Shown piece by piece: positions 934 through 29,451 of a DNA stretch of 36,529 nucleotides (position 1 is its first letter; each line of letters starts with the position of its first letter). This stretch comes from a virus. The translations under genes and the position numbers were made by a program. The DNA is taken from positions 1-36,529 of IMG/VR virus record IMGVR_UViG_3300046516_000522. One strand, given 5' to 3'. The notes below the pieces were generated by a model that did no database searches, was not told the origin of the DNA, and worked only from the letters and a program-made list of their open reading frames with translations.

Positions 934-938
934 AATGA
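1..938 (+). CDS. P22 gp20-like DNA ejection protein, C-terminal part (5' truncated by window edge)
   Basis: This is the last ~310 residues of a virion ejection protein; the window cuts its 5' end, so the ATG at 6 is internal. The copy at the right end starts at 35029 and shows that residue 192 of the full protein corresponds to this ATG. The visible part is Gln/Ala/Gly-rich with no transmembrane segment or enzymatic motif. The stop (936-938) overlaps the ATG of the next gene, so the two are translationally coupled. Naming rests on gene order (gp7-like, this, gp16-like, tailspike) and on composition, not on a recognised motif. The full protein would be 501 residues, close to P22 gp20. Confidence 0.7.
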   Translation, partial: AMTPTPTQVDTGGSIQYKDTNPLTNPGIIGMTMQKTLDPVTASSPVNVIGPNNTPGVVPRGEMWNAPPLPTGANPQGAGAPAPLPGQSAAPGQPASPHFVATGPAMGVQGSNDGNVQTVNTHWGQLSNDAANAQTNIGIAQNIKAYADKALTGKQGDKLAAVNGILSIFGQGGQTDISTATDLLQKNMARLSLTSRQGAGGTDAAGALATAANPHGTMTAAAIKDAADQVIGAQQMALSEQKILQPYKLSNDVAGYQQAQTQFNQAADPRIWQFANMSPQQRASFKAGMSPADQKAFSSKIRTLEGMGAIQ

Positions 939-3247: not shown

Positions 3248-3395
3248 GCTCAAGGATGCCGTAAAGCCAGCTCCACACCCATTCGGTTTCTTTGCCGTCA
3301 CACACTGCCGCATAGATCATCAATGGAATCCATGCCTGAGTGCAGATCACGAGCACCAGCGCTAGCACCTGAAACAGCCATTTAATCGTGTTCAT
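3225..3395 (-). CDS. Small minus-strand membrane protein at the immI position (superinfection-exclusion candidate)
   Basis: A 56-aa protein with a hydrophobic segment of about 26 residues (WLFQVLALVLVICTQAWIPL and following) and a short polar tail, so probably one or two inner-membrane passes. The ATG at 3395 is chosen because GGGGA lies 8 nt upstream; a longer frame to 3503 would read through terminator sequence. It runs against the late operon and its 3' end overlaps the gp16-like gene by 23 bp. A perfect TATAAT on the minus strand (3433-3438) could serve its own promoter, although no clear -35 is visible. P22 places sieA and the mnt/arc/ant genes between gene 16 and gene 9, the same location, so superinfection exclusion is a positional guess. 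No sequence family was recognised. Confidence 0.6.
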   Translation of the reverse strand: MNTIKWLFQVLALVLVICTQAWIPLMIYAAVCDGKETEWVWSWLYGILEPIDRALS

Positions 3396-3477: not shown

Positions 3478-5301
3478 ATGGGTTCGCAACTCCCTAATGG
3501 CAAACAGCAGTTCGTAACGATCCTCGGGACGCCGCTCGTAGGTGGGAAGGTCTATTTTTACGAGCCGGGAACTGAGACGCCCAAGACCACGTATCAGGAT
3601 TCGGCCCTGACGATCCCGAACACCAATCCGGTTGTTCTCGACTCGCGAGGTCAGGCGGTTATCTGGGGCAGCGGCACCTATCGGCAGGTTTTGGTCGACG
3701 TGTTCGGCGTGCAGATATGGGATCAGATCGTCGAGGATATCGGTGCGCAGATTACAGGTTCGCTTGCTGACCCAGGCGGATCGGCATTGGTCGGATTTCT
3801 ACCTGGCGGCACCAGTTCAGTGACGCGTACCGTGCAGGACAAGTTGCGCGATATCGTCAGCGTCAAGGATTTCGGCGCAAAGGGCGACGGGTCTACAGAC
3901 GATACAGAAGCAATCCGCTTGGCAGATGGTTCCAACATCGCTGCGTACTATTTCCCACCTGGGACCTACTGCGCGAACAATCTGGTGCTGACGAAGCCGT
4001 TCGACATGGACGTCAACGCGGTCATCAAGTACAACGGTTCGAACGATAACGATGTCCTGATCAACTTCAATGGGAACAATGTCGCGCTCGGCAGGGTGAA
4101 CGTCGATGGAAATAGCACGAACCCGCTGGGTCTCTTCACCATCAACGGCAATGGCAATACCGTTGAGGAGGTCAACGCGGCTAATCAGACGTGCCCGGCA
4201 GACGGCATCGCCAACGGTGCGGTGAAGTTCCTCGGCAATGGAAATCTCATCAAGCGGTGTACCGGCGAGAACTTAACCAATGGGGGCAATGCGAATGTGA
4301 GCCTCCCGCAGCTTCTTACGTTCGGAGGGGCATCGAATCAGAACACCTGTGAAATTCTTTATGGCAACAATATTCGCGCGGGCATCGTCGGGTTCTCCAC
4401 CGGCACGATCAACTATGTTGGGCACGCAGAATATACGAACATCAATGACAACGGCTGTTACATGATCATGGGTTACACGTCCGTCAAAACACTTCGATAT
4501 GACGGGGCTGATGAGGTGCTTGTCTCCATCGGTGGTGGAGGCGATTTTGGCACGGTGATTGTTACCTCGGCGGGCGGTGATAACGCGGTTGTTGGAATTA
4601 ACAATAGCAATGCGATAACTATCGGCGAAATCCTTCTGCACGGCCCGAACTCACCCGCAATTATTTTGCGCTCCCGCGGCGATTCTACCCAGGTGTGCGC
4701 ACCCCTGAAGATCGGGCGGATCGCGGGCGGCTTCTTCGGCAATGAGCCTTTCTTTCTGGACGATACCGGGAAGCTGGATACGCTGTCGATAGACTGCGTA
4801 GACATTACACACTTCCTGAATGCGAATAGTTTGACCGGGTCGTGGAGCAAGCTCGATGCGGCACAAAGGCTGAATCTTGGAAAGATCAATATCAAGGTAG
4901 TCGACACGACTAATGGGACTGGCGACCTTCATCTTTCCATCAATCCGGGTCTAAGTTATCCAAGTAATGCCGACACCATATCGGTGAGTATCTTCAACTC
5001 GGATGGCATCACGCCAAATGCGGGGCGACAGTTCTTCGCGGACAATTTTTTCCAGCCGAACATGAGCTACGTCGGCAGCGCAAGTGTCCACAATGTACTG
5101 GCCTCGATACAGAAATCAGACGGCACACTGCCGAGTGGAGGCGGTCTGTTCTCGTCTGCTGTGCCGACTGGGGGAACCTGGAAGCGTGGACAGCACATTT
5201 GGAGATCATCCCCCAATGCTGGTGCGACGCCTGGGTGGGTGTGCGTAGCGTCTGGAACACCGGGGACCTGGGTTCAGATGGCTCTTTTGCAGAATTCCTA
5301 A
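3478..5301 (+). CDS. Tailspike protein with pectate-lyase-type beta-helix
   Basis: This 607-aa receptor-binding tail protein probably binds or cleaves host surface polysaccharide. Residues 1-95 form a small beta-rich head-binding domain of the kind shared by podovirus spikes (KVYFYEPGTETP, VVLDSRGQAVIWGSG). At 131-142 DFGAKGDGSTDD is the entry signature of the pectate_lyase_3 beta-helix family, and a long Asn/Gly-rich repetitive stretch follows (about 150-480). The start at 3478 is chosen for GAGG 7 nt upstream; an in-frame start at 3454 lies inside a terminator. It follows the gp16-like gene, as P22 gene 9 does. Catalytic residues cannot be assigned by eye, so enzymatic activity is inferred. 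Confidence 0.85.
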   Translation: MGSQLPNGKQQFVTILGTPLVGGKVYFYEPGTETPKTTYQDSALTIPNTNPVVLDSRGQAVIWGSGTYRQVLVDVFGVQIWDQIVEDIGAQITGSLADPGGSALVGFLPGGTSSVTRTVQDKLRDIVSVKDFGAKGDGSTDDTEAIRLADGSNIAAYYFPPGTYCANNLVLTKPFDMDVNAVIKYNGSNDNDVLINFNGNNVALGRVNVDGNSTNPLGLFTINGNGNTVEEVNAANQTCPADGIANGAVKFLGNGNLIKRCTGENLTNGGNANVSLPQLLTFGGASNQNTCEILYGNNIRAGIVGFSTGTINYVGHAEYTNINDNGCYMIMGYTSVKTLRYDGADEVLVSIGGGGDFGTVIVTSAGGDNAVVGINNSNAITIGEILLHGPNSPAIILRSRGDSTQVCAPLKIGRIAGGFFGNEPFFLDDTGKLDTLSIDCVDITHFLNANSLTGSWSKLDAAQRLNLGKINIKVVDTTNGTGDLHLSINPGLSYPSNADTISVSIFNSDGITPNAGRQFFADNFFQPNMSYVGSASVHNVLASIQKSDGTLPSGGGLFSSAVPTGGTWKRGQHIWRSSPNAGATPGWVCVASGTPGTWVQMALLQNS

Positions 5302-8389: not shown

Positions 8390-8698
8390 CACCTCATTTC
8401 CCCTCATTTGAATGACCATCCAGTGTGCCGCTAAGGTGCCATAGCTCTGCGAAGAAAGCTTAACTTCTTGAAAATTAAGCAATATTTCTATGGATGGAGC
8501 AGATCAAGTATTCGACGGCGCTGCCGGTGCGGCCGGGTAAAATCACGGCTAACGAGTGAAAAAGATCAGTAAATACGGTGCTTGTGAGCGCTTTCTCTGA
8601 CTCGCATTTGATCACGTTCAGTCTACATTTTCGCTTGTTTTTCGTGTGCCGTGGCTCCAAAATGTGTGCCACGAAGGTCATGGCACACTGGGGAAAAG
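8390..8698. promoter_or_regulatory. Integrase upstream region, candidate attP/operator
   Basis: This 309-bp non-coding stretch is AT-richer than its neighbours. It holds the half-site GTGTGCC at 8423-8429, 8644-8650 and 8664-8670, and its complement GGCACAC at 8682-8688. The last two form GTGTGCCA-9 nt-TGGCACAC (8664-8688), a perfect 8-bp inverted repeat 10 nt before the integrase ATG. GCTTAA/TTAAGC (8458-8480) form a second, weaker hairpin that overlaps a promoter-like TTGAAA/TATGGA pair. Clustered half-sites fit integrase arm/core sites or an int operator. The true attP core cannot be identified without a host junction. Confidence 0.5.
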
Positions 8699-9787
8699 AT
8701 GGCATCTATTACACCGCGGAAAAACAAGGACGGTTCGGTCTCGTATAAGGCTCAGGTCCGAATCCGCAGAACCGGCAAAATCGTGCACCAAGAGACTCGG
8801 ACATTCGATCGTCGACAGGCAGCCGCGAACTGGGCCAAGAAGCGTGAGAGTGAGCTGGCGAGCGCCGAAGGGCTGCGCGCAGCTCTTCAGGAAAATCCGC
8901 CGATTGCGGACATCATCGACAAGTACAAGAAGGATCGGAAGAAGCCGCTGGATCGGACCAAGAGTTCCATCCTCGAACAGCTCGCGCAATCTGACGTCGG
9001 TTCGATCAAGGCAAACGAGCTCACAAGTTCCGACATCGTCTCTGTGGTCAAGGAAGTGGAGATTGCACCGTCGACTCGCGGCCAATACTTGTCACACCTT
9101 TCGAGCGTGTTGAAGGTGGCGCGCCCGCTGTGGGGATACCCTGTGGACGCGACCGTGGTCGCTGACGCGCGAGTGGCGCTGACCGACATGGGCCTAGTTG
9201 GGCGTTCGCGGCATCGAGAGCGCCGGCCAACGATTGACGAACTCAATCAACTGATGACGCTTTTCGGTCGAATTCGGGAGGGGGCGCCAAGCAGCATTCC
9301 CATGCAGGCAATCACAGCATTCACGATTTTCTCGATGCGTCGCATCGGCGAGATTTGCAGGATTGAGTGGGACGATTTCGACCCCGACGAAGCGCGGGTC
9401 ATGGTGCGCGATCTGAAGCATCCGAACACGAAGATCGGCAACGATACTTGGGTGGACCTGACGCCGGAGGCGGTGCGGATCATTGAGGCTCAGCCGAGGA
9501 CAGACAAGCGGATATTCCCGTACAGGCCTCTAACCGCGAGTACCGCGTTCGGGAATGCGACTTCGTTGCTTGAGATTGAAGGCCTGACGTTGAACGACTT
9601 GCGGCACGAAGGGTGCAGCCGCCTGGCAGAGATGTCATGGACGATTCAGCGCATCGCTGCGGTGACGGGCCACCGTAGTTGGAATACGCTGAAGCGCTAC
9701 ACGCATGTGAGAAAGGTGGGGGACAAATTCGCCGGTTGGAAGTGGCTCGACGTCATCGCCCCGCCGAAGGAAGCAGTTACGACCTGA
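8699..9787 (+). CDS. int: Tyrosine-family site-specific integrase
   Basis: This 362-aa recombinase should integrate and excise the phage genome. An N-terminal arm-binding/SAM-like region (1-165) precedes the catalytic domain. Catalytic positions by motif are R215 (MRRIGE), K240 (DLKHPNTK), R302 in DLRHEG, H325 in GHRS and the nucleophile Y334 (TLKRYTH). The His normally two residues before the DLR box appears as N299 (LTLNDLRHEG), a notable substitution. The ATG at 8699 has GGGGA upstream; a longer frame from 8651 crosses the inverted repeat and is rejected. Its 3' end overlaps the convergent PrtN-like gene by 11 bp. Confidence 0.93.
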   Translation: MASITPRKNKDGSVSYKAQVRIRRTGKIVHQETRTFDRRQAAANWAKKRESELASAEGLRAALQENPPIADIIDKYKKDRKKPLDRTKSSILEQLAQSDVGSIKANELTSSDIVSVVKEVEIAPSTRGQYLSHLSSVLKVARPLWGYPVDATVVADARVALTDMGLVGRSRHRERRPTIDELNQLMTLFGRIREGAPSSIPMQAITAFTIFSMRRIGEICRIEWDDFDPDEARVMVRDLKHPNTKIGNDTWVDLTPEAVRIIEAQPRTDKRIFPYRPLTASTAFGNATSLLEIEGLTLNDLRHEGCSRLAEMSWTIQRIAAVTGHRSWNTLKRYTHVRKVGDKFAGWKWLDVIAPPKEAVTT

Positions 9788-10037
9788 GTTGATCGCGCTC
9801 CTTGTTCGCCGCCGCGGCGCGTTCGTCGATATATTCGGCGAGCGCCTGCACCGTGACGCCCTTGGAGGATTTTTGCGACCCCTCGATGCGCACGACTGGC
9901 AACGCTATCTCGCCGGCATTGATTTTGGCGAGTAACTTGTCAGTCTTCAGGTGGGGGAAGTAATCCCTGCACACCTGGTCGAGAGGGATCACAGCCCGGG
10001 CACCATATTGCGCGAGCAGAATAAATGCGGTGTTCAT
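9777..10037 (-). CDS. PrtN-like (pyocin activator family) regulator
   Basis: An 86-aa small DNA-binding protein. MNTAFILLAQYGARAVIPLD, a YFPHLKTDKLLAKINAGEI segment and VVRIEGSQKSSKGV match the PrtN pyocin-activator family. Members are common beside phage integrases in beta- and gammaproteobacteria. It is the last gene of the leftward operon. Its ATG overlaps the stop of the AlpA-like gene (TAATG) and its 3' end runs 11 bp into int. It may help excision or activate genes on induction; which of these cannot be told from sequence. Confidence 0.8.
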   Translation of the reverse strand: MNTAFILLAQYGARAVIPLDQVCRDYFPHLKTDKLLAKINAGEIALPVVRIEGSQKSSKGVTVQALAEYIDERAAAANKERDQLRS

Positions 10038-10219
10038 TATTTGTTTATTCCTTTCATCAGTTCACGCAGGCTATCCGCCGGTACCGCACTCGCGCGTTTG
10101 CCGACCTTGACCAGCTTGAGTCGCCCCTCGGCGACCATCCGATATATCGTCGTCTGTGACAGCCCTAGTAGCTCCATGACCTCTGGTATCCGGTAGTGTT
10201 TCTGGATAATGTTGCTCAT
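10037..10219 (-). CDS. AlpA-like / excisionase-type helix-turn-helix protein
   Basis: A 60-aa winged-helix protein of the HTH_17/AlpA type. YRIPEVMELLGLSQTTIYRM (residues 9-28) is the helix-turn-helix and EGRLKLVKVGKRA the wing. Small proteins like this next to an integrase typically act as excisionase or integrase regulator. It overlaps the upstream 127-aa gene by 4 bp and the PrtN-like gene by one base, so the three are coupled. Placing it in the leftward early operon would allow excision only on induction. Confidence 0.82.
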   Translation of the reverse strand: MSNIIQKHYRIPEVMELLGLSQTTIYRMVAEGRLKLVKVGKRASAVPADSLRELMKGINK

Positions 10220-10599
10220 TGGCGCACCTCGCTTTCTGGAATCAGCTCAGCCAGCGAGTCAAACCATTCTTCCGCTTGCTCGACTGCGTCGCCCACATCT
10301 TGGGCCTTCACACCGAAACGGTGAGCCAATACGGGATGACTGATCTGATAAAGATTCGGGCGCACGGTAGTGACGAGTAGCGGCCCCCAGCGATCACTCT
10401 CGACGACAACGAATTCGAAAGCAGCCGGCATGCGAGTGTCGCGCGGCCACGCCATGCGCGAGGTGGCATCATGGAGGCGGAGCGACAAGCTACTGTAGCC
10501 GGTCAGCACCATGAACGGATGCGCGATCAGATCGTGGATGACGGCCCAGCCTAGAAGCTGTTTTTCATTGGCACATGCTTTGCGCGGGTCAGTTCGCAT
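10216..10599 (-). CDS. Hypothetical protein of the leftward early operon
   Basis: A 127-aa protein. The ATG at 10599 is chosen for GGAG 7 nt upstream and an 11-nt overlap with the end of the antirepressor gene. The sequence shows CANEKQLLGWAVIHDLIAHP near the N-terminus, a beta-rich middle (FEFVVVESDRWGPLLVTTV) and an acidic C-terminus. There is no recognisable catalytic or DNA-binding motif. The coupling suggests it is co-expressed with the antirepressor and excision genes. Function is unknown. Confidence 0.65.
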   Translation of the reverse strand: MRTDPRKACANEKQLLGWAVIHDLIAHPFMVLTGYSSLSLRLHDATSRMAWPRDTRMPAAFEFVVVESDRWGPLLVTTVRPNLYQISHPVLAHRFGVKAQDVGDAVEQAEEWFDSLAELIPESEVRQ

Positions 10600-11410
10600 C
10601 GGCGCACTCCAAGCGTGCCGCAACTTGTGCATGCATCTCTGCGAACCGCTCGACGTACCAGTGCGGTTGAGTCTCACGCGGATTGCCCGGATTCGTCAGA
10701 TTCTTCCCATACTGCAGCCCCGCATCCGTGATCGCCCAGAAATGCTTGATGCCATCGGCGGCGCGCGGCGAGTTGCTTTTCCGTTTCATCTCGACGAGGT
10801 ATCCCGCCTCACCCAGCAGCAGGTTGTATGCGCGCACGCCGATCCGGATACCGTGGTCGCGGAGCAGCGCGGTCAGCGGCTTCGTAACCATTGAACTGCC
10901 TGGTGTATCTGTCGCTGCGTCAACGACGTATGCAGGCAGGAATCCCGGATCTCCGCCGTTGCTCTTGATGATGTGGGTAAGCATTGCGACCTGGCTTGAT
11001 GGCGCTGGCTTGAGCATGCGTGCAAAGGCCTCGGCACCAGCCAATTCGACGTCAATCTTCGACGGTTGACGAGGCGCCGCGGGCATTTGATAGCCGCCGG
11101 TCTTACGAATGCTCGTCAACACCTCTTCGAAAACCCAGCGCTCGAATGCATCGGCGGCCGGAAGGGTGCTGTTGACCACCAGACGCATCATGTCCGCTTC
11201 TGAGAGCACGCGCATGTCCTGCGTCCGCCCTAAGGCATCAGTGATGGGGTGCAGGATTTGCACCCCACGGCAGTGCGACCGCAATGCCGTGGTTGAGTCG
11301 GCATATCCAAGGATGGCCGCGACGTCTTTACCAACAAAGAAAGGCTCACCGTCGATCTGAATGACGCGAATCTGTCGGCCGGAAAATTCAAACGGAATCA
11401 GCTTGTTCAT
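10589..11410 (-). CDS. Bro-N domain phage antirepressor
   Basis: A 273-aa protein with an N-terminal Bro-N domain (about 1-105: FSGRQIRVIQIDGEPFFVGK, AAILGYADSTTAL, and the later WVFEEVLTSIRKTGGY). Its C-terminal region (about 175-250) resembles phage antirepressor ANT domains, with LLGEAGYLVEMKRKSN and ITDAGLQYGKNL. Proteins of this type bind and inactivate phage repressors, as P22 Ant does. GGAGG lies 8 nt before the ATG, the best ribosome-binding site of the operon. The start abuts the stop of the 35-aa gene. With a repressor that looks non-cleavable, this is the natural candidate for the switch to lytic growth. Confidence 0.85.
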   Translation of the reverse strand: MNKLIPFEFSGRQIRVIQIDGEPFFVGKDVAAILGYADSTTALRSHCRGVQILHPITDALGRTQDMRVLSEADMMRLVVNSTLPAADAFERWVFEEVLTSIRKTGGYQMPAAPRQPSKIDVELAGAEAFARMLKPAPSSQVAMLTHIIKSNGGDPGFLPAYVVDAATDTPGSSMVTKPLTALLRDHGIRIGVRAYNLLLGEAGYLVEMKRKSNSPRAADGIKHFWAITDAGLQYGKNLTNPGNPRETQPHWYVERFAEMHAQVAARLECADAN

Positions 11411-11518
11411 TTACGCTTCCTCCACTGATAAGAAGTGGATCAACAGTTCGGTCTCGCGGTCGGAGATGATCTCGGCCGCCCAAAGCTTCATCAGGAATTG
11501 CTTGAGGATCATTTTCAC
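11411..11518 (-). CDS. 35-aa coupled leader-type protein before the antirepressor
   Basis: A very short gene with GTG start at 11518, GGAG 7 nt upstream, and a stop directly abutting the antirepressor ATG. The protein (KMILKQFLMKLWAAEIISDR and following) is an amphipathic helix with an acidic end. An ATG at 11512 is an alternative start. It overlaps the 3' end of the S24-like gene by 4 bp. It may mainly couple translation of the antirepressor to the upstream gene, or be a small regulator. It is supported by the ribosome-binding site and exact junctions, not by homology. Confidence 0.55.
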   Translation of the reverse strand: MKMILKQFLMKLWAAEIISDRETELLIHFLSVEEA

Positions 11519-11832
11519 GATTGCACTCCTTGGGCAAGTTCGATTTCGTTCATGAACGCCGGCCGGGCCCGCGCGATGACCGGATAGACGGCTGCCACAC
11601 GTGCCGCGGGCAGGGCGCCGACGGCCGGCGGCGAGTACGACTTCAGCCGCAAGCCATCGTCTGTATGCGCGATCAGTTCGCGAACGATGCAAGCACCGTC
11701 GACGAGCTCGATAACGACGTCGTCGCCTGGTTCCGCGTTGCCTTGCGTGTCGTAGATCACCGCCTCGCCGAGCTTGATACGCGGCCGCATGTCGTTCGTG
11801 GGCATTGGAAACGAGAGATAGCGCTCAGGCAT
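11515..11832 (-). CDS. Stand-alone S24/LexA-type C-terminal domain, protease residues missing
   Basis: A 105-aa protein that aligns by eye to the C-terminal dimerisation/protease domain of LexA/CI proteins (PTNDMRPRIKLGEAVIYD, then a GDDVVIEL strand, then ACIVRELI). It has no helix-turn-helix. The catalytic Ser position is Asp14 (NDM for xSM) and the Lys position is Arg51, so self-cleavage is not expected. The same two substitutions occur in the phage repressor (13972-14673). The ATG at 11832 has GGGAG 8 nt upstream. It precedes the antirepressor in the same operon. It could pair with the repressor through this domain; that is inference. Confidence 0.7.
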   Translation of the reverse strand: MPERYLSFPMPTNDMRPRIKLGEAVIYDTQGNAEPGDDVVIELVDGACIVRELIAHTDDGLRLKSYSPPAVGALPAARVAAVYPVIARARPAFMNEIELAQGVQS

Positions 11833-11833
11833 A

Positions 11834-12094
11834 TCACACGCTCCCGTAGTGGGCGGCGAAGTAACCGAGTCCGCCAGGGTTGCATTCGAGGACTTCGGCG
11901 CAGTTCTCCATGTCTCGAGCAATGCCACGAAGAGCATCGCTGAGAATCACGAAGTCAGTGACGTCACCTTCAGACGGCGGGTTGCGGATACTCCGTAGAC
12001 ACAGGTCATGCAGCGCCGTGATCGAGTGGTACGTTAGTTCGCAGCGGCCCGCGACTGCGGCGATGTCCGATGGTGACGGCGAAGCGTTAGCCAT
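11834..12094 (-). CDS. Small helical early protein
   Basis: An 86-aa predicted all-helical protein (SDIAAVAGRCELTYHSITAL then DFVILSDALRGIARDMENCA). There is no membrane segment or metal motif. GGGGGTG precedes the ATG, which overlaps the upstream stop by 8 bp. It resembles the 108-aa and 131-aa neighbours in length, helical pattern and content, suggesting a related group of small early proteins. Function is unknown. Confidence 0.65.
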   Translation of the reverse strand: MANASPSPSDIAAVAGRCELTYHSITALHDLCLRSIRNPPSEGDVTDFVILSDALRGIARDMENCAEVLECNPGGLGYFAAHYGSV

Positions 12095-12350
12095 GGTTCA
12101 CCCCCAGACAGTCCGTCCGCGTGAAAGCCTCCACCAGGCTAGACATTTCATGGGCCAAGTCCTGCGCTAGGCCCATAACCGTCACGAGATGCAGATCACC
12201 CTCACAAGTCTCGTACTCACCCAAAATAGCAAGCAGCGAAGCGAGCTGACCAGACCTGATTTCTGCATAATCGCGAATCTGGAACCCATGATGCGTCACA
12301 GTGACCGTTCCCGCCTCTCGGTCATGGACAAATGTATGAGTCTTAGGCAT
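12087..12350 (-). CDS. Small early protein with beta-strand N-terminus
   Basis: An 87-aa protein. The first ~30 residues look like a beta-hairpin (THTFVHDREAGTVTVTHHG) and the rest is helical (LASLLAILGEYETCEGDLHL). The ATG at 12350 is preceded by GGGAGGTG and lies 8 bp inside the end of the upstream gene; a longer frame to 12422 is rejected as it would overlap that gene deeply. It belongs to the coupled leftward operon. No family was recognised. Confidence 0.65.
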   Translation of the reverse strand: MPKTHTFVHDREAGTVTVTHHGFQIRDYAEIRSGQLASLLAILGEYETCEGDLHLVTVMGLAQDLAHEMSSLVEAFTRTDCLGVNHG

Positions 12351-12669
12351 TTGCCACCTCCCGCTCCCGCTTCCACTCGGCATGCATGGCGGCCGTCTTG
12401 CGCATGCTTTCTGTTTGCTCAAACACGTATTCGCCTAGGCATTCGAGCGCGTTTAGAATGTGCTGCATGGATCCGACGTCGAGGGGCTGGGCATGGCTCA
12501 TATCGGGCTGGCCCAAGCTGTTGTGCACGATCCGCGACAGTACCTTGATGCCATTGGCCGCGCGTGTAATATCAGCGATATTCACGGAGTGACACACGGA
12601 ATGCTCCGGCTCGTCGTCGGACAGCCAGGTGTCATTCACAAAGGGATGCGGACCTTTGAATTCAGACAT
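12343..12669 (-). CDS. Small early protein, helical
   Basis: A 108-aa protein starting MSEFKGPHPFVNDTWLSDDE, followed by two long helices (ADITRAANGIKVLSRIVHNS; MQHILNALECLGEYVFEQTE) and a charged C-terminus. AAGGAG lies 7 nt before the ATG. It overlaps both neighbours by 8 bp. No DNA-binding or catalytic motif is evident. Confidence 0.65.
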   Translation of the reverse strand: MSEFKGPHPFVNDTWLSDDEPEHSVCHSVNIADITRAANGIKVLSRIVHNSLGQPDMSHAQPLDVGSMQHILNALECLGEYVFEQTESMRKTAAMHAEWKREREVANA

Positions 12670-13057
12670 GCTCGCGCTCCTTGCGCTGCAATTGAAACGC
12701 AGCATCGGCGCCGATTTGTGCCAGTTCACTGATAACCCGAACCTGGTCCGCGATTACGAAAAGCAGGCTGCTTACGTTGTCGCCGATCTCGAAATTTCCA
12801 GCGCGCATCTTCCCCGGCGTGTAGTCGGTATTTATGAGGCATCCGACATTCGAGACAGTATCGGCAAGGTTGTAAGCCATGTGGCTCGCGCACTCGGTTG
12901 CCTCCGAGAGAAAGCCAAGTTCGTCGGCGTCAAGGTCTCGGACGCGCTCATTCAGAAAACTGAGGACACTGCTCGGCGTGAATGGCCCAAACCGGCGACC
13001 TTCGGGTTTAGCTGTCTTGACATCTTGCTGCTCTGCACTAAAATTCGGCTTGTTCAT
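12662..13057 (-). CDS. First gene of the leftward early operon, helical hypothetical
   Basis: A 131-aa protein starting MNKPNFSAEQQDVKTAKPEG, with a Pro/charged N-terminal 30 residues and helical stretches (PSSVLSFLNERVRDLDADEL; SHMAYNLADTVSNVGCLINT). The ATG at 13057 has GAGG 8 nt upstream. It is the first gene after a long leader (13058-13701). Being the promoter-proximal product it would be the first made on induction. No lambda N-like arginine-rich motif is present, so it is not an obvious N antiterminator. Confidence 0.65.
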   Translation of the reverse strand: MNKPNFSAEQQDVKTAKPEGRRFGPFTPSSVLSFLNERVRDLDADELGFLSEATECASHMAYNLADTVSNVGCLINTDYTPGKMRAGNFEIGDNVSSLLFVIADQVRVISELAQIGADAAFQLQRKEREHV

Positions 13058-13701
13058 TTCGTTTTGCCTCTGTTGTATCTGCGCGCCGCATGTTCCTAGG
13101 CATTCGGCGCGCACCCTTCCAAGCTGCCATTTCTGGCAACCCCCTAAAAAACTCTTCTTCTTCAAATCGTAGGCGCGAGTGCATCCAACTAGGCAGGACT
13201 GCCAAGTAAGCGGGTGACACTACGATTCGAGGGTTTCGTTTGTTCTTGTCTTCGCTAGATTTGCTCCTTGATTCGTGTTGCTACGTTATGGGAATCAATG
13301 TTCCGGTAATCGGGTCACAAAAACAACTGTCTGGTCAGGATAAGACCAATCGATGGACTAGATCCCGCCTATCACTTGCATCGAAATCTATCACAGCGGA
13401 GGAACAGCTCTAAGCAGGTGAAGAACACCGCGCTTTGTCCATCCACTTTTAAAAATGCTACAGCATAAAAAGGCGAGTTCGACAATACTGGGTTTGATCT
13501 TTTCAGTTCGTTCCTAAATAACCCTTAAAAATCAATGACTAGGATCCACCGATTACGCGACCTGAGTTTCCATGTTTAACCTTGATATTGTCGCGAATGC
13601 GCGCTATCAGTGAACGCGATCCTGCCAGGATAGTCCTTGAATCGGTCTGGAAGCCGAGTAAGTAGACAACGATCGGCAAGTGGAAAATACGCCCCGGTTC
13701 G
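13058..13701 (-). promoter_or_regulatory. Long structured leader of the leftward early operon
   Basis: About 640 nt without a convincing gene. It holds a long-range perfect inverted repeat AATCGTAG (13165-13172) / CTACGATT (13220-13227) enclosing a GGCAG-GA-CTGCC palindrome, and a smaller TGGTC/GACCA hairpin near 13333-13350. No classical terminator is seen on the minus strand. The transcript from the 13929-13956 promoter must cross it, so it may act as an antitermination or attenuation RNA. This is inference from its length and structure. Confidence 0.4.
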
Positions 13702-13893
13702 TTAGAAACCGATATTGCTGGGTCTGATGCTATCGTCAAGCAGGTCTTCCCACACGCGGCTGATGAGCGCGTTGATAACGCAGCTGTCGCGCGATACTTT
13801 CGAGAACCGGAGGCAGCCGATGGCGCGCATGATCGGCTCGGCGATATGGGCTGCTGGGCATTGCACCGCGTAGTGGAATCGGATCAGGTTCAT
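13702..13893 (-). CDS. Small ORF between repressor and leftward operon
   Basis: A 63-aa ORF starting MNLIRFHYAVQCPAAHIAEP with GAGG 6 nt before the ATG. It is the first ORF downstream of the candidate leftward promoter, about 30 nt after the expected start. The sequence is mixed helical with three cysteines and has no recognised motif. It could be a true early protein or a leader ORF. The ribosome-binding site and position give moderate support. Confidence 0.5.
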   Translation of the reverse strand: MNLIRFHYAVQCPAAHIAEPIMRAIGCLRFSKVSRDSCVINALISRVWEDLLDDSIRPSNIGF

Positions 13894-13928
13894 GCTGGCC
13901 TCAATGTGCGGTAGGACACGTTGAGGTA

Positions 13929-13956
13929 ACTATATCATACGAAACTCAAATTGCAA
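13929..13956 (-). promoter_or_regulatory. Candidate leftward early promoter overlapped by a repressor site
   Basis: On the minus strand TTGCAA (13956-13951) and TATAGT (13934-13929) are 16 bp apart. The -35 overlaps CTTTTTAGGTTGCA (13965-13952), a close match to two sites in the cI/cro region. This places the leftward operon under the same repressor, as PL/OL is in lambdoid phages. Transcription would begin near 13922 and run through the small ORF and leader. Confidence 0.6.
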
Positions 13957-13971
13957 CCTAAAAAGTAAAAA

Positions 13972-14673
13972 CTATAACTTCCCGAAAACCCCTACCACCT
14001 CAGCAAACTCTTGAACGACTGCTGCGTCTGCAGCTGGCAGCTCCCAGTCTGGATGGCGCTGCTTGTCCGGGTTGTCTGCGACCAACTTTAGCCCTCCATC
14101 TGGTCGAATGAAAAGGCGTCGAATTAGGATCTGTCCCTGCATATGGCAGACATAAATACGTCCGCTCGTGATCTTGAAGTCGCTTACGCGGACGATTAGT
14201 GTGTCGCCTTTAACTATGCGCGGCCCCATGTCGTCATTGGGTGCGATCATCGTGGCCGCAGATTTCTCTCCTAAACCAGATTCTTCCAGCCACGCTTTAT
14301 GCACCGACAGCATGCGCTCAGTATGCTCCGTTAGGAATTCCACATATTCGTCATCTGCACTCTCAAACCTCATTTTTGGAAGGGTCAAGTAGTCCCATTG
14401 AGGAATGCCCACCGCCTTGAGAACTTTCTGCCCCAGGGTTTGTGGCTGGGCATCAGGCAAATGATCTGTGTCAAGCCAGTTGGCGGGCATCTTTAGCGTA
14501 TCTTCATACCGGCGCGCGAACTTGTCCCCGATCACCTTAGTGCCACGCAAATGTTGGTTGACGATAGATGGCGATGGCAATTCCATCATTCGAGCGATAG
14601 CAGTCTGGCTGTAAGGCGAGTCATCAACCCATCTACCCAAGTTGACGCGTCGTATTTCGCTGATTGGTTTCAT
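13972..14673 (-). CDS. Phage repressor, CI-like, with S24 domain lacking protease residues
   Basis: This 233-aa lysogeny repressor has an N-terminal helix-turn-helix (about 21-45: SQTAIARMMELPSPSIVNQH) and a C-terminal S24/LexA-type domain (about 140-233). In that domain the Ser of the GxSM box is Asp148 (PNDDMGPRI) and the Lys is Arg185 (ILIRRLFI), so RecA-stimulated self-cleavage is unlikely although dimerisation may remain. It faces the Cro-like gene across an operator region. No Shine-Dalgarno precedes the ATG; a TATGGT box ends 11 nt upstream, so the transcript may be nearly leaderless. Confidence 0.85.
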   Translation of the reverse strand: MKPISEIRRVNLGRWVDDSPYSQTAIARMMELPSPSIVNQHLRGTKVIGDKFARRYEDTLKMPANWLDTDHLPDAQPQTLGQKVLKAVGIPQWDYLTLPKMRFESADDEYVEFLTEHTERMLSVHKAWLEESGLGEKSAATMIAPNDDMGPRIVKGDTLIVRVSDFKITSGRIYVCHMQGQILIRRLFIRPDGGLKLVADNPDKQRHPDWELPAADAAVVQEFAEVVGVFGKL

Positions 14674-14770
14674 GTCGGCATTAGACCATAGGCAACCTAA
14701 AAGGTAAATTAATTGTAACCACGTCGGAAGACGGTTGCAACTATAACTTTTTAAGTTGTATCATGTGGCC
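14674..14770. promoter_or_regulatory. Divergent repressor/Cro operator-promoter region
   Basis: Two related sites, CCTTTTAGGTTGCC (14704-14691, minus) and CTTTTTAAGTTGTA (14747-14760, plus), match the third site at 13965-13952; consensus CYTTTTARGTTGYM. A further GGTTGCAAC half-palindrome lies at 14733-14741. The rightward promoter may be TTGCAA (14735-14740) and TATCAT (14759-14764), 18 bp apart. The leftward -10 may be TATGGT (14690-14685, minus). The plus-strand site lies between its -35 and -10, as expected for repression. Confidence 0.6.
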
Positions 14771-15019
14771 ATGAGCAAACCAGTCTACATCCCACGCAAC
14801 TTCCGAGAGTTCTTCTTGGCTCTTCCGAAGGAGCACCGTGAGCGATTCGCCGCAATCGCAGGCACTACCGAAACCTATATCGCCGTGAAGCTCGTCCGAG
14901 CTGCCGCCGTTCCTCGTCCGGATCAAATGAACAGGCTTTGGGACGCTTGTGAGGCATATCGGGCGCCCTTCACCCGTGCTGATCTCCTGAAGTTCTTCTA
15001 TCCGGAGTCGCGCGCATGA
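14771..15019 (+). CDS. Cro-like small regulator
   Basis: An 82-aa protein starting MSKPVYIPRNFREFFLALPK, with a helix-turn-helix-like stretch (HRERFAAIAGTTETYIAVKL). It diverges from the repressor and begins the rightward early operon, the classic position of cro. The ATG at 14771 has no Shine-Dalgarno and coincides with the predicted transcript start, so the mRNA may be leaderless. A TTG start at 14756 would extend it by five residues. The stop overlaps the ParB-like ATG. The Cro call is by position and size. Confidence 0.65.
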   Translation: MSKPVYIPRNFREFFLALPKEHRERFAAIAGTTETYIAVKLVRAAAVPRPDQMNRLWDACEAYRAPFTRADLLKFFYPESRA

Positions 15020-15930
15020 GCGGATTTACACGCCACCCGTTGTCCGCCGCATTCCCATCGTTCTCCGACGATGACCTAACCGCACTCGTCGAGGATATTC
15101 AGCAATTCGGTCAGCGTGAAACTGGCCTGATGCTCGATGGGATGATTCTGGACGGCTGGAATCGTTATCAGGCCTGCGTGCGCTTGGGCATCGAATTCAA
15201 TTACCTCGAGTTCGAGGACGAATTCCCTAGCACGGATCCTCGCGCCTACGTCAAATCGAAGAACTACCATCGTCGGCATATGACGGCGTCGCAGCGAGCC
15301 GCGTCGATTGTCGCCTTGTCGCAGTGGGCACCTCCCGGAAAGCCTAACGTGGCACCCGGTGCCACGTTAGCGACGAATGCAGAACTCGCACGCGAAGCAG
15401 ATGTTAGCCCGCGGACGATCCGACAAGCCAAAGCGGCTCACGAAGCGGGCCTTGGTGGCGCGGTGATCGCCGGTGAAATGAGTCTGAAAGAAGCCGATGC
15501 ACAGATTAAGGCTTCGCGCGCGCGGACCATCCCCGAACAAGAAGCTGCTCTAGTTCACGAAACCGCAGCGGAACTTGCGGCGCGCACGGATGCAGTTGCA
15601 ACTAAACCGTCTTTGCGTGTCGACGCCGCTGAGGAGTCCTCACAAGCGGCCGACGATGATCTGATTTCGGAATTGCAGGCGCTTCAACGCCGCGTCAGTG
15701 TTCTGTCGGCCGAGATCGATTTGTTGACAGCGACCGATCACGGTGCCGAGATCCACAAGCTGACGCAGCTGCTCCTGAATGCCGACGATAAGATCGCTCG
15801 GTTCGAGGAGCGCATGAATGATCTGAAACAGTTCGGCGCGAAATTCGATGCGCTGCGGAAGTTGCTGAACGTGAAAAGCAATCGCGACGTTGTGGGTGCA
15901 GTGCGCAAATTGGTAGAGGGCCAGCAATGA
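15016..15930 (+). CDS. ParB-like N-terminal domain protein (replication module)
   Basis: A 304-aa protein. Residues 10-95 fit a ParB/Srx-type domain, with MILDGWNRYQACVRLGIEF as box I and KSKNYHRRHMTASQRAAS as box II. A helix-turn-helix follows (about 118-140: NAELAREADVSPRTIRQAKA). A C-terminal coiled coil (about 210-285) probably dimerises it. It begins the replication module before helicase and primase, coupled by ATGA overlaps on both sides. It may bind an origin or partition-like site; a perfect inverted repeat lies inside the gene at 15344-15370. Whether it acts in replication, partition or as a nuclease is not decided by sequence. Confidence 0.8.
   Translation: MSGFTRHPLSAAFPSFSDDDLTALVEDIQQFGQRETGLMLDGMILDGWNRYQACVRLGIEFNYLEFEDEFPSTDPRAYVKSKNYHRRHMTASQRAASIVALSQWAPPGKPNVAPGATLATNAELAREADVSPRTIRQAKAAHEAGLGGAVIAGEMSLKEADAQIKASRARTIPEQEAALVHETAAELAARTDAVATKPSLRVDAAEESSQAADDDLISELQALQRRVSVLSAEIDLLTATDHGAEIHKLTQLLLNADDKIARFEERMNDLKQFGAKFDALRKLLNVKSNRDVVGAVRKLVEGQQ
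15344..15370. repeat. Perfect 12-bp inverted repeat inside the ParB-like gene
   Basis: CTAACGTGGCAC, spacer CCG, GTGCCACGTTAG: 24 paired bases with no mismatch, lying between the ParB domain and helix-turn-helix coding regions. It looks like a protein-binding palindrome such as a parS- or origin-type site for the encoded protein. It is too symmetrical to be an incidental codon effect. A hairpin role in the mRNA is the alternative. Confidence 0.7.
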
Positions 15931-23543: not shown

Positions 23544-24852
23544 TCTTCCGCGCAAGCTGATTCCGGTATTTGCTGGGGAAGCTGACGTACGCGGGGCATA
23601 CGGCGGTCGGGGTTCAGCCAAGACGCGGAGCTTCGCAAAGATGGCTGCGGTGCGCGGCTATATGTACGGATCGGCCGGCATCACCGGCATTCTGCTGTGT
23701 GCGCGGCAGTTCATGAACTCGCTTGAAGATTCCTCGCTCGAGGAAGTAAAGCGAGCGATTGAAGAAGAGCCGTTCTTGGCTGCGTATTACGAGATCGGTG
23801 AGAAGTACATCAAAAGCCGTGACGGTCGGATTTCGTTCGCGTTCTCTGGTCTTGATCGCAATATCGCGTCGGTCAAGTCGAAGGGTCGGATTTTACTGTG
23901 TTGGGTCGATGAGGCCGAGCCGGTAACCGATGAAGCGTTCACCACGCTGATACCGACGCTGCGGGAAGAGGGCGACGACTGGAACGCTGAGCTGTGGGTG
24001 ACGTGGAACCCGAAGCGGAAGACGGCAGCGGTCGAAAAGCGCTTCCGATACACCGAAAGCCCTCGCGTGAAGGTGGTCGAGCTGAATTGGCGCGATAACC
24101 CGAAGTTTCCACGAAAGCTACAGCGCGACCGTCAGACCGATCTCGACGAGCGGCCGGAGCAGTGCGACCACATATGGGAAGGTGGATATGTGACTGCGCT
24201 CGAAGGAGCGTACTTCACGAAGCACCTGGCCGTGGCGAAAGAGGAGGGCCGAATCGGCTTCTTCCCGGCTGACCCGCTGATGACGATTCGCCTCATCTGC
24301 GACATCGGCGGGACGGGTGCACGTGCTGATGCGTTCGTGATTTGGGCGATGCAGTTCATCGGTCGTGAGATCCGGATTGTGAACTACTACGAGGTTGTTG
24401 GTCAGCCTGTCGATGCGCACGTAGCGTGGTGTCGGTCAGAGGGCTATACGCCTGATCGCGCGCAGTTCTGGTTGCCACATGATGGATCTACGCAGGACAA
24501 GGTTTATGACGTCTCGTATCAGTCCGCGCTGAAGGCCGCTGGATACAAGGTAACGGTAGTTCCCAATCAGGGCAAAGGCGCAGCGATGCAGCGCATTGAG
24601 CGCGCGCGTGTGCTGTTCCCACAGATCCGTTTTAACGCAGAAACGACTGAAAAAGGCCGCGACGCACTTGGCTGGTATCACGAAAAGCGCGATCAGGCGC
24701 GCGGCATCGGACTAGGTCCCGAACATGATTGGGCCAGTCACGGCGCCGACGGATTTGGCCTTGGCTGCGTGATCTGGGAAGAGCCGACGCCTCCGAAACC
24801 TAAACCTGTTGTCCGCCGCCCATCAGTTGGTGCTGGCGGCTGGATGTCTTAA
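23524..24852 (+). CDS. terL: Terminase large subunit
   Basis: This 442-aa ATPase/nuclease packages DNA into proheads. Walker A-like GGRGSAKT is at 27-34 and Walker B-like ILLCWVDE at 123-130 (D129, E130). The C-terminal nuclease part has acidic clusters (CDIGGTGARADAF, LPHDGSTQD, HDWASHGADGFG). The start at 23524 (MITAQIDLP) is preferred to an earlier 23503 start. Length and motifs fit the PBSX/P22-like terminase families. It is followed by the portal. Confidence 0.9.
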   Translation: MITAQIDLPRKLIPVFAGEADVRGAYGGRGSAKTRSFAKMAAVRGYMYGSAGITGILLCARQFMNSLEDSSLEEVKRAIEEEPFLAAYYEIGEKYIKSRDGRISFAFSGLDRNIASVKSKGRILLCWVDEAEPVTDEAFTTLIPTLREEGDDWNAELWVTWNPKRKTAAVEKRFRYTESPRVKVVELNWRDNPKFPRKLQRDRQTDLDERPEQCDHIWEGGYVTALEGAYFTKHLAVAKEEGRIGFFPADPLMTIRLICDIGGTGARADAFVIWAMQFIGREIRIVNYYEVVGQPVDAHVAWCRSEGYTPDRAQFWLPHDGSTQDKVYDVSYQSALKAAGYKVTVVPNQGKGAAMQRIERARVLFPQIRFNAETTEKGRDALGWYHEKRDQARGIGLGPEHDWASHGADGFGLGCVIWEEPTPPKPKPVVRRPSVGAGGWMS

Positions 24853-24866
24853 GGAAGCCTGTCTAA

Positions 24867-27050
24867 ATGGCACGCAAACGCAAATCCGACGACGCTGAAT
24901 CGAGCGGGCTGGACCCGATCGTCAAGGAAGCGAAGGATAGGTTCGCCCGTTGCGAGGACGCCGAAAGCGAGTTCCGGAAGCTCTTCGTCGAGGATATGAA
25001 ATTCGCCAACGGTGACCCGGATAACAACTGGCAATGGCCGGACCGCATCCGCCAGTCTCGAGATGGCGACGCTCGGCCATGCCTGACGATCAATAAAGTC
25101 CGTCAGCACAACCTCCAGATCATCAACGATGCGAAGCAGAACAAGCCGAGCATCAAGACGCTGCCGGTCGATGGCCAGGCTGATATCCAGATCGCTAAGA
25201 TTCTCGACGGCATCATGCGGCACGTCGAATACAACTCGCACGCCGAGATTGCGTATGACACGGCTACCGAGTTCGCGGTACAGGGCGGCCTGGGCTACTG
25301 GCGCGTGATCACTGACTATGCGCACGACGGTTCGTTCGAGCAGGAAATCTTCATCCGGCGCGTGAAAGATCCGTTGTCGGTCGTGATCGATTGCGATATT
25401 CAGTCCGCCGATGGCGCCGATGCCAAGTTCGGCTTTGTGTTCGAGGACGTGCCGAAAGAGGAATACGAGGCGCAATATCCGGACGAAGACCCAGCGAGCG
25501 TCACATTCCCGATGTCTGCTACCGGCGATCCGTGGCTTGATAAGGACCACGTGCGCGTATGCGAATACTTCCGCCGCGCCGAAAAGAAAGACATGCTGAT
25601 CAACCATCCGGTCAAAGGCCCGATGAAGTTGTCTGCAGTGGATGATGCGGACGAGCGTAAATCCTTGCTGGCTGACGGCAATGTGAAGAAACGCGAGATC
25701 GTTGAGCCGCATTTCGAGTGGTACAAGATTGCCGGCGACAAGATCATCGATCGCAAGGAGTGGCCAGGCCGCTATCTGCCGATCGTGCGCGTAGTAGGCG
25801 AGGAAATTGTCATCAACGGCAAGGTCGAGCGTAAGGGCCATACGCGAGGCATGAAAGACGCTGCGCGCATGTACAACTACATGACCTCGGCTAACGTCGA
25901 ATACATCGCGCTCCAGACGAAGACGCCGTACATTGCGCCGGCTGAAGCGATCGAAGGCTATGAGGATGAGTGGGCAAACGCGAACAAGGACAACAAGGCG
26001 TATCTGCCCTACAACAGCGTCGACGAGCACGGCAATCAGATTCCCCGTCCGCAGCGCGAGCAACCGCCTGTAGGCGCTTCTGCGTACCTGCAAGCCATGC
26101 AAACGGCCCAGCAGGAACTGATGATGGCCAGCGGCCAGTATCAGGAGCAGTTTGGCGCACCGTCGAATGCTGATGCGGGCGTTGCGATCGCGGCCCGTCA
26201 GCGCCAGGGCGACAAGGCTACCTATCACTTCATCGACAACGTTGCTCGAGCAATCCGCTACACCGGTCGGATCATGGTCGACCTTATCCCGAAGATTTAC
26301 GACACGCAGCGTGTGGTGCGGATCGTCGGCGAGGACGGCAGTGAGGACTTCGCGCAGATCAATCCCGAGCAGCCGCATGCAGTGGGCGATGCTAACGGTC
26401 AGCCGGCACCGATTCAGCCGCAGGGATCGCAGAAGCCGACCGCCGCAGAGGCCGCGCAACTGATCTACAACCCCGGCATCGGGCGCTATGACGTGACGGT
26501 TGAGGTCGGCCCTAACTACGAGACGCGCCGGCAGGAAGCGTTCCACGCGCTCACGCAGATCATGTCGCAGGATCAGGACTTGATGAAGGTCGCCGGCGAT
26601 CTGCTGTTCAAGGCCGCGGACTTCCCGATGGCCGATGAGGTCGCAGAGCGCCTGCACCGCACGATCCCGCCTCAGATCCTCGGCGAAGGTCCGAGCCCGG
26701 AAATGCAGGACGCCACGCAGAAGATGCAGCACATGGGCCAGATGATCGAGCACCTGTCGCAGCAGCTTCAGCAGGCACTCGCTGACAAGAATATCGAGCA
26801 AGTGAATGCCAGCATCAAGGCATACGACAGCGAAACCAAGCGCATGCAAGCTCTCGGACCTGTCGATCCCGCGCTCGTTTCTCACTTGGCGACGCAAGTC
26901 GTGATGCAGATGATGCAGGAGGGCTCGCCTGAAGGCATGGTAGCCCCTCAGATGCAACCGCCGCAGCTGCCGCCTCCACAGGCCGCGCCGCAAACCCAAC
27001 CGAACCCGCCGAGCGCGGGTTTTTCTTTGCCCGCTCCCCAAGGACAGTGA
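24867..27050 (+). CDS. P22-like portal protein
   Basis: A 727-aa dodecameric portal through which DNA enters and leaves the head. Length, the helical N-terminus (SGLDPIVKEAKDRFARCEDA), the WQWPDRIRQSRDGDARPC region and the long helical C-terminus with a Pro/Gln-rich tail (about 690-727) match the P22 portal family with its extended barrel. It follows terminase with a GGA-containing ribosome-binding site and precedes the head genes. Confidence 0.88.
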   Translation: MARKRKSDDAESSGLDPIVKEAKDRFARCEDAESEFRKLFVEDMKFANGDPDNNWQWPDRIRQSRDGDARPCLTINKVRQHNLQIINDAKQNKPSIKTLPVDGQADIQIAKILDGIMRHVEYNSHAEIAYDTATEFAVQGGLGYWRVITDYAHDGSFEQEIFIRRVKDPLSVVIDCDIQSADGADAKFGFVFEDVPKEEYEAQYPDEDPASVTFPMSATGDPWLDKDHVRVCEYFRRAEKKDMLINHPVKGPMKLSAVDDADERKSLLADGNVKKREIVEPHFEWYKIAGDKIIDRKEWPGRYLPIVRVVGEEIVINGKVERKGHTRGMKDAARMYNYMTSANVEYIALQTKTPYIAPAEAIEGYEDEWANANKDNKAYLPYNSVDEHGNQIPRPQREQPPVGASAYLQAMQTAQQELMMASGQYQEQFGAPSNADAGVAIAARQRQGDKATYHFIDNVARAIRYTGRIMVDLIPKIYDTQRVVRIVGEDGSEDFAQINPEQPHAVGDANGQPAPIQPQGSQKPTAAEAAQLIYNPGIGRYDVTVEVGPNYETRRQEAFHALTQIMSQDQDLMKVAGDLLFKAADFPMADEVAERLHRTIPPQILGEGPSPEMQDATQKMQHMGQMIEHLSQQLQQALADKNIEQVNASIKAYDSETKRMQALGPVDPALVSHLATQVVMQMMQEGSPEGMVAPQMQPPQLPPPQAAPQTQPNPPSAGFSLPAPQGQ

Positions 27051-27051
27051 C

Positions 27052-27354
27052 ATGTACCCAGGCATTCTGCAGGACCTCGGCTCGACGACGCCGATTCAAG
27101 GCCTCTACAACATCAAGCAGGTTCTGACGCCGGCCTCGGTCGGCGCGAACACCACGAGCGAACAGACGTTCAACGTTCCTGGTGTGCTGCCGGGTGACTC
27201 GATTGACATCAACAAGGCATCGCATCAGGCCGGATTGGGCATCACGAATGTTCGCGCCAGCGCTGCCGGTGTCCTGGCGATCACATTCATGAACAACACT
27301 GCGGCGCCGATCGTGCCGGTGAGCGAGCAATACATCATCGGCGGCGTTCGCTAA
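27052..27354 (+). CDS. Small head-associated protein
   Basis: A 100-aa beta-rich protein (MYPGILQDLGSTTPIQGLYN start) starting one base after the portal stop and ending before a strong terminator. Its overall pattern, a small beta-sandwich with a conserved-looking middle, resembles head decoration or completion proteins of other podoviruses. It is similar in length and style to the 108-aa protein at 32915. Function is not assigned. Confidence 0.6.
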   Translation: MYPGILQDLGSTTPIQGLYNIKQVLTPASVGANTTSEQTFNVPGVLPGDSIDINKASHQAGLGITNVRASAAGVLAITFMNNTAAPIVPVSEQYIIGGVR

Positions 27355-27467: not shown

Positions 27468-28196
27468 ATGCAAACGCAAGAGAACGCTTCAACCGAAGTA
27501 GAGAACGTCACGCCTACGGCCTCCATGGAACAGGCGCAACAGCCCGCTGAAGTCAGCACGGAACCGGGCGCCGGGCAAACCGCAGAGCAATTCGAGCAGC
27601 AGGCGCAGCAGGAAAAGCCCAAGAACGACTGGGTTCAACGCCGCATCGACCAGCTCACGCGGGAGAAACACGAGGAAAAGCGGCAGCGTGAAGCGCTCGA
27701 ACAGCAGTTGCGGCAGTACCAGCAGCCTACTGAGAGCACGGCTCCGAAGCAGATGACCGCTGACGAGATCCGGGCCGAAGCGAAGCGCCTCATTCAGCAA
27801 GAGAAGTTCGACGACGCATGTAACAAGGTTTTCGACGCCGGCAAAGGCGAGTTCGGCAACGAGTGGGATTCGTCGCTGCGCACGTTCCAGATGCTCGGCG
27901 GCGCATCGCCCGAGTTTCTCGAGGCCGTCACTGCGATGGATGCAGGCCACAAGGTACTGCATCACCTCGGCCAGAACCCGGAAGTCGCTGAACGCCTGCT
28001 GTCCCTTCCTCCGTTGCGCATGGCGCTTGAGCTCGCCCGTCTCGAATCGACGGTCGGTCAGGCGAAACCCAAACCCGTTTCCAACGCCCCCGCACCGATC
28101 AACCCGATCGGCGGACGGTCTGCGTCTGTCGAGCCCGAAGAGTTCGCGACGGCCGCAGAGCAGATCGCGTGGTGGAAGAAACACGGCTCCAAATGA
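27468..28196 (+). CDS. Scaffolding protein
   Basis: A 242-aa Gln/Glu-rich protein, helical throughout (about 35-110: EQFEQQAQQEKPKNDWVQRR and following), with a short basic C-terminal region. Its charge, low-complexity helical nature and place between portal and coat match phage scaffolds. The start at 27468 is chosen over a GTG at 27432, which lies just after the terminator without a good site. It guides coat assembly and leaves the mature head. Confidence 0.8.
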   Translation: MQTQENASTEVENVTPTASMEQAQQPAEVSTEPGAGQTAEQFEQQAQQEKPKNDWVQRRIDQLTREKHEEKRQREALEQQLRQYQQPTESTAPKQMTADEIRAEAKRLIQQEKFDDACNKVFDAGKGEFGNEWDSSLRTFQMLGGASPEFLEAVTAMDAGHKVLHHLGQNPEVAERLLSLPPLRMALELARLESTVGQAKPKPVSNAPAPINPIGGRSASVEPEEFATAAEQIAWWKKHGSK

Positions 28197-28206
28197 GGCC
28201 TAGAAA

Positions 28207-29409: not shown

Positions 29410-29416
29410 TTGACCA

Positions 29417-29451
29417 AGGGGCTGCCATGTTCGGTTCGACATGCGGCCCCT
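29417..29451 (+). other. Stable hairpin after the coat gene
   Basis: AGGGGC(TG) pairs with (CG)GCCCCT, and CATGT with ACATG inside, about 13 bp with one bulge and an 8-nt loop. It lacks a true T-run (GTCTCTTTC follows), so it may stabilise the coat mRNA or reduce downstream expression more than terminate. It lies before the ATG of the next gene and argues against an earlier start at 29427. Confidence 0.6.

Follow-up and report, generated by a model that had tools for sequence, protein, structure and literature searches.

The CI repressor of phage 186 is inactivated by the antirepressor Tum and not by cleavage. It consists of an HTH and a C-terminal domain of LexA/CI fold without a working protease (PDB 2fjr, 2fkd), an architecture shared by the repressor described here. 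Likewise, the Gifsy repressors are not cleaved and are instead inactivated by LexA-controlled antirepressors (PMC3121763), and 210 of 271 telomere phage repressors are predicted to be non-autoproteolytic; SOS-independent inactivation of repressors by small proteins is also described (PMC10432266). By analogy with 186 CI and Gifsy, a non-cleavable repressor that needs another inactivator would be of a known kind.

The cI gene studied here lies in a viral stretch of 36,529 nucleotides (IMG/VR record IMGVR_UViG_3300046516_000522), referred to at its full length as the window. The gene and the codons in question, the latter assigned from alignments, are the following:

13972-14673, minus strand: CI-like repressor P0001, 233 aa, with an HTH (residues 1-75), a linker and an S24/LexA-fold domain (about 96-233)
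14230-14232, minus strand: codon of Asp148 (GAC), in the column of the nucleophilic Ser
14119-14121, minus strand: codon of Arg185, in the column of the catalytic Lys
14353-14358, minus strand: codons of Ala106-Asp107, in the column of the scissile Ala-Gly

PHROGs labels the protein a CI-like repressor, and residues 115-214 match the Pfam family Peptidase_S24 (PF00717) at 8.5e-12, with 45.2 bits against a curated cut-off of 23.3. Thus, the S24 domain of P0001 can still be recognised from its sequence, unlike that of 186 CI, and no LexA-controlled Tum-like gene was found in the present locus. Similarly, the Gifsy repressors GfoR and GftR resemble P0001 as non-cleavable repressors of temperate phages that encode an antirepressor (PMC3121763), but they comprise about 136 aa and lack a cleavage motif, whereas P0001 comprises 233 aa and carries a full S24 domain.

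In the original prediction the nucleophilic Ser of the LexA/CI dyad is replaced by Asp148 and the Lys by Arg185, with the surrounding fold motifs retained. Alignments were made with phage repressors found by tblastn, with 27 IMG/VR relatives and with an S24 protein from an Aquitalea plasmid, and all of them agree on both columns, with Asp148 where G-D-S-M-x-P has its Ser and Arg185 where (V/I)-K-R-L has its Lys. In a profile of 28 relatives the Ser and Lys of lambda CI fall in the same two columns. No Ser or Lys able to fill in was found by alignment near the dyad columns, the neighbouring residues being N146-D147-D148-M149 and I184-R185-R186-L187. The motifs GDSMEP, FIKRLF and SAGPG of the intact Aquitalea relative correspond to NDDMGP, LIRRLF and SADDE in P0001. 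An AG or CG is likewise absent from the expected stretch of the linker, where Ala106-Asp107 is found, albeit this is a weaker feature since some relatives with intact Ser and Lys also lack AG/CG there. The scissile Gly to Asp replacement is presumably the same change as in the non-cleavable LexA G85D (lexA3).

Each of the two dyad codons is at least two base changes away from any Ser or Lys codon, respectively, so that a single sequencing error cannot account for either change; as the dyad is also kept in 72 of 74 comparable repressors (see below), chance or sequencing error is unlikely. No close full-length homologue of P0001 was found in IMG/VR or among GTDB genomes, and a scan based on the HTH returned only the phage locus L128. 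The further claim that RecA-stimulated self-cleavage is closed is well supported at the sequence level, nucleophile, general base and scissile Gly all being replaced within a retained fold. With Ser, Lys and scissile Gly each looked for and absent, P0001 falls outside the autoproteolytic S24 repressors, and it is best described as a non-cleavable CI-type repressor that would work like 186 CI or the Gifsy repressors.

The AlphaFold model of P0001 has a mean pLDDT of 87.3, and its C-terminal domain matches LexA C-terminal domains with Z 13-15, in line with the predicted retention of the S24 fold. The domain also matches lambda CI and phage 186 CI (Z 12.2 over 109 residues), and the matches include LexA and CI in RecA-bound structures. 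A RecA-binding fold that is retained in this way could permit P0001 still to be cleaved, via Asp-based chemistry or by another protease after contact with RecA. We regard this as extremely improbable, given that the scissile Gly is also Asp, as in what we take to be the equivalent non-cleavable LexA G85D. A further precedent is Streptococcus pyogenes SipA, a Ser-Lys protease of related fold that has Asp at the Ser position and works without catalysis, the Asp playing no part in its activity (PMC4049620). SipA differs from P0001 in being a cell-surface protein of the signal-peptidase family with Gly at the Lys position.

The two halves of P0001 have different nearest relatives. The HTH shows 36% identity to that of phage SPC32H Rep (PDB 5d50; Z 13.4) and 39% to that of the Enterobacter phage BUCT554 repressor, which has no S24 domain. 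Conversely, the nearest S24-domain relative found is the S24 repressor of an Aquitalea sp. USM4 plasmid (NZ_CP029540; 27% identity over 220 aa), which, unlike P0001, retains Ser, Lys and Ala-Gly. P0001 thus resembles a combination of a Rep-type HTH with an S24 domain of Aquitalea type. BUCT554 also shares the gene in the cro position:

14756-15019, plus strand: first rightward gene, occupying the cro position; Enterobacter phage BUCT554 has a homologue in that position

As both this gene and the P0001 HTH resemble BUCT554, the immunity region seems to derive from a BUCT554-type phage (Uetakevirus).

Outside the immunity region, the portal gene (24867-27050) has relatives at 70-90% identity in 77 IMG/VR loci, the regulatory regions of which differ widely, some encoding repressors without S24 and some repressors with Ser and Lys. 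Long open frames run antisense to the portal gene (24849-27065, minus strand, 738 aa), the major head gene (28099-29442, minus strand, 447 aa) and a 770-aa gene (1322-2689, minus strand, 455 aa), and are probably a by-product of codon usage. At the left end of the window, the genes at 6-938 (310 aa) and 935-3247 (770 aa) matched no PHROG or Pfam family.

The cI gene is flanked by three 15-bp palindromic operator-like sites of the pattern YAACYTNNNARGTWR, one of which overlaps a predicted promoter:

14744-14758: operator-like palindrome TAACTTTTTAAGTTG, between cI and the divergent rightward operon
14693-14707: operator-like site CAACCTAAAAGGTAA, directly upstream of cI
13954-13968: operator-like site CAACCTAAAAAGTAA, downstream of cI, overlapping the predicted leftward promoter
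13929-13956, minus strand: predicted leftward promoter, TTGCAA, 16 nt, TATAGT with TG (consensus match only)

With at most one mismatch allowed, the pattern gave 7 matches over the whole window against 0.7 expected, a number reached by 0 of 100 shuffles, although the enrichment is partly circular in that the pattern was derived from the sites themselves. Six of the 7 matches fall at the three sites flanking cI (both strands counted). Likewise, a phage-specific repeat of its own occurs on both cI flanks in four of five relatives (L125, L126, L127 and L128), including L126, the repressor of which also lacks the dyad. A simple consensus search for sigma-70-like promoters on the minus strand of 9780-15100 returned only the two at cI. 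Since operator-like sites flank cI at both early promoters, P0001 looks to be a working repressor still, and the leftward operon appears to be under its control because one such site overlaps the predicted promoter of that operon.

The operon read from this promoter comprises a 63-aa ORF, several small ORFs, an 86-aa ORF, an ORF for a stand-alone S24 domain, the antirepressor gene ant and an excisionase-type gene. These features, together with the integrase gene, are:

13702-13893, minus strand: 63-aa ORF that opens the leftward operon and is conserved in L100 (G008) and L126
13060-13230, minus strand: conserved leader DNA/RNA of the leftward operon
11834-12094, minus strand: 86-aa ORF immediately preceding the stand-alone S24 gene, with 55-60% identity in three relatives
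11515-11832, minus strand: stand-alone S24 domain, 105 aa, without HTH (PF00717 at 4.7e-6, above cut-off)
10589-11410, minus strand: Bro-N antirepressor Ant, 273 aa (PF02498 at 9.1e-18; phrog_130 at 6.6e-50)
10037-10219, minus strand: AlpA/excisionase-type HTH that closes the leftward operon
8651-9787, plus strand: tyrosine integrase

In L124 the first gene of the leftward operon (about 4013-4800) is Rha-like by eye and stands in place of the 63-aa ORF. The leader contains an invariant GGGTTGCCAGAARTGGCAGCTTGG after a T6 run, found once in each of the six phages with a stand-alone S24 gene (the window and L124-L128) and in no other locus compared; as a candidate for a known RNA it gave no Rfam match, no covariation among five sequences and a z of -1.4. 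A comparison of the 86-aa and other leftward-operon ORFs with the PDB for an SPC32H-like Ant gave no match. In L128 the 86-aa ORF, immediately ahead of the stand-alone S24 gene, is fused to an HTH that shares 58% identity with the P0001 HTH (L128:4805-5347); the phage's own repressor (2570-3328) keeps Ser and Lys.

The presence of Ant 2.5 kb downstream of cI bears on how P0001 might be inactivated. It had been proposed that induction comes most simply from this Bro-N antirepressor, which as a dedicated inducer replacing self-cleavage would be made on a signal and would then bind and inactivate the repressor. The pairing of non-cleavable repressors with antirepressors is established for Gifsy prophages, where non-cognate repressors can also be targeted (PMC3121763), and an internal ant promoter or a host factor could serve such a model. 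However, the Gifsy antirepressors lie outside the immunity region and under LexA, whereas Ant is distal in the leftward operon, downstream of the operator-containing promoter (consensus evidence only). A search for the full LexA box with 3 mismatches allowed gave 0 matches, albeit with a consensus that may not suit the host, and a simple consensus search for the CTG-N10-CAG core gave 7 matches against 10 expected, which is not above chance; one match lies close to ant, at 11661, but relatives lack it at the corresponding place. Located behind a predicted promoter that overlaps a repressor operator, and with no LexA box found, Ant should be silent in the lysogen and unable to start its own induction.

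Of 50,697 phage records, 1112 contain an Ant relative. The best 80 loci with such relatives were surveyed, 74 of which have an S24 repressor within about 8 kb, and these repressors, which form 14 clusters at 70% identity, keep both Ser and Lys in 72 of the 74 cases; the two exceptions, L142 and L144, are the same phages as L126 and L124, respectively. The presence of Ant as a predictor of dyad loss was rejected on these counts, and Ant is an accessory that generally accompanies intact S24 repressors in phages, not a marker of a non-cleavable one. Furthermore, the Ant proteins of the window and L126 share 76% identity, although the two repressors are only 18-21% identical. In combination, the predicted repressor control of its operon, the consensus searches that found no LexA box, the 72 of 74 intact dyads and the conservation of Ant across unrelated repressors leave the proposal unsupported, and we hold a dedicated-inducer role for Ant to be possible but doubtful. 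A function as a lytic-commitment or trans-acting antirepressor is plausible.

The stand-alone S24 gene, in the same operon as ant, begins one base after the stop of the 86-aa ORF. Its product likewise has Asp (TNDMRP) and Arg (IVREL) in the dyad columns, as do its five IMG/VR relatives in phages L124-L128, which are 74-80% identical to it. Values of dN/dS between 0.07 and 0.30 (15 pairs) identify it as a selected protein-coding gene. Its distant relatives are complete repressors that have both Ser and Lys, so it derives from a cleavable type. No NCBIfam family was matched up to E 0.1 in a HumD/UmuD test, PF00717 being the sole match; no true relatives were found in the phage, plasmid and GTDB collections, and AlphaFold modelling from six sequences was poor (pLDDT 45).

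In the six phages with this gene, the repressors differ in their dyad residues, which are Asp and Arg in the window, Lys and Cys in L124, Ser and Lys in L125, L127 and L128, and Asp without Lys in L126 (Met or Gln, depending on the alignment). The three dyad-less repressors (window, L124 and L126) are about 20% identical to each other, and the four distant L126-repressor relatives that were examined all have Ser and Lys; close relatives of the L124 and L126 repressors in IMG/VR were only these proteins themselves. The low identity, together with the intact dyads in the distant L126-repressor relatives, indicates that the dyad was lost more than once. Within the sampled set, loss is confined to phages with the stand-alone S24 gene, in 3 of 6 against 0 of 12 clusters (hand-computed Fisher p about 0.025) or, when single loci are counted, 0 of 72 (p about 0.0003) outside this group. 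Near-identical counts of 13 clusters and 71 loci gave 0.021 and 0.0003, respectively; all these p values ignore shared ancestry, the six phages being related to each other.

Dyad loss in three unrelated repressors of related phages could also be taken to mean that P0001 is a decaying gene, in a phage that is effectively lytic or has another repressor. This is very unlikely in view of the intact ORF, the confident fold and the full set of operator-like sites on both flanks, and the integrase and excisionase-type genes are intact as well. Moreover, Asp and Arg at both columns, recurring in the stand-alone S24 domain, are unlike random decay.

The shared domain family and Asp/Arg pair, the operon shared with Ant and the purifying selection would each fit a stand-alone S24 domain that acts as partner of the repressor by pairing with its C-terminal domain. 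Conversely, P0001 and the stand-alone domain are only 29% identical, and the latter does not track the repressor. It is 96% identical between L124 and L125 and 92% between L126 and L127, whereas the repressors within each pair are unrelated or 25% identical. The repressor-partner candidate is weakened by this conservation across swapped repressors, and we rate it as distinctly unlikely. Because the stand-alone domain is conserved while the repressors differ, a partner common to these phages is more likely than the repressor C-terminal domain; it may be the RecA filament, LexA, the 86-aa protein or another product of the operon. One unlikely reading makes the stand-alone Asp/Arg S24 domain a small phage regulator of a new kind, which as a pseudo-protease would mimic LexA/CI and bind a conserved partner; the RecA filament or LexA of the host would be the most plausible candidates. 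The SOS cleavage signal would thereby be taken out of the phage circuit, and loss of the dyad from the phage's own repressor would be tolerated as a result. The loss of the dyad from three unrelated repressors in phages with this gene lends such a decoy some backing.

We consider it probable that P0001 is a pseudo-protease prophage repressor which holds both early operons off, and that induction takes place by a route other than self-cleavage. Its S24 domain would be a pseudo-protease kept for oligomerisation, and the protein would bind all three predicted operator palindromes, of which two adjoin the divergent rightward operon and the third lies at the leftward promoter, keeping both operons off. 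RecA filaments would be unable to trigger self-cleavage with nucleophile, base and scissile Gly gone, and the lysogen would be Ind- with respect to repressor cleavage. Repression might instead be lost through an antirepressor acting in trans from a co-resident or superinfecting phage, through dilution or degradation of the repressor, or through a host signal. Once leftward transcription has begun, Ant, and perhaps the stand-alone S24 domain, would lock in the lytic state. Taken together, the findings suggest that this phage is induced by a route other than the usual DNA-damage alarm.

What is new compared with the 186 and Gifsy systems is the triple substitution in an S24 domain still recognisable from its sequence, along with the conserved stand-alone Asp/Arg S24 gene. 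A Bro-N antirepressor beside a repressor says little on the route of inactivation, the same family being found nearly always beside intact dyads. Models of prophage induction mostly assume RecA-driven cleavage of the repressor, and P0001 would be a natural case in which the protease fold is present but nucleophile, base and cut site are replaced. As such it may offer a clean case for asking which signal replaces SOS, and whether dead S24 domains serve as binding modules or as SOS decoys.
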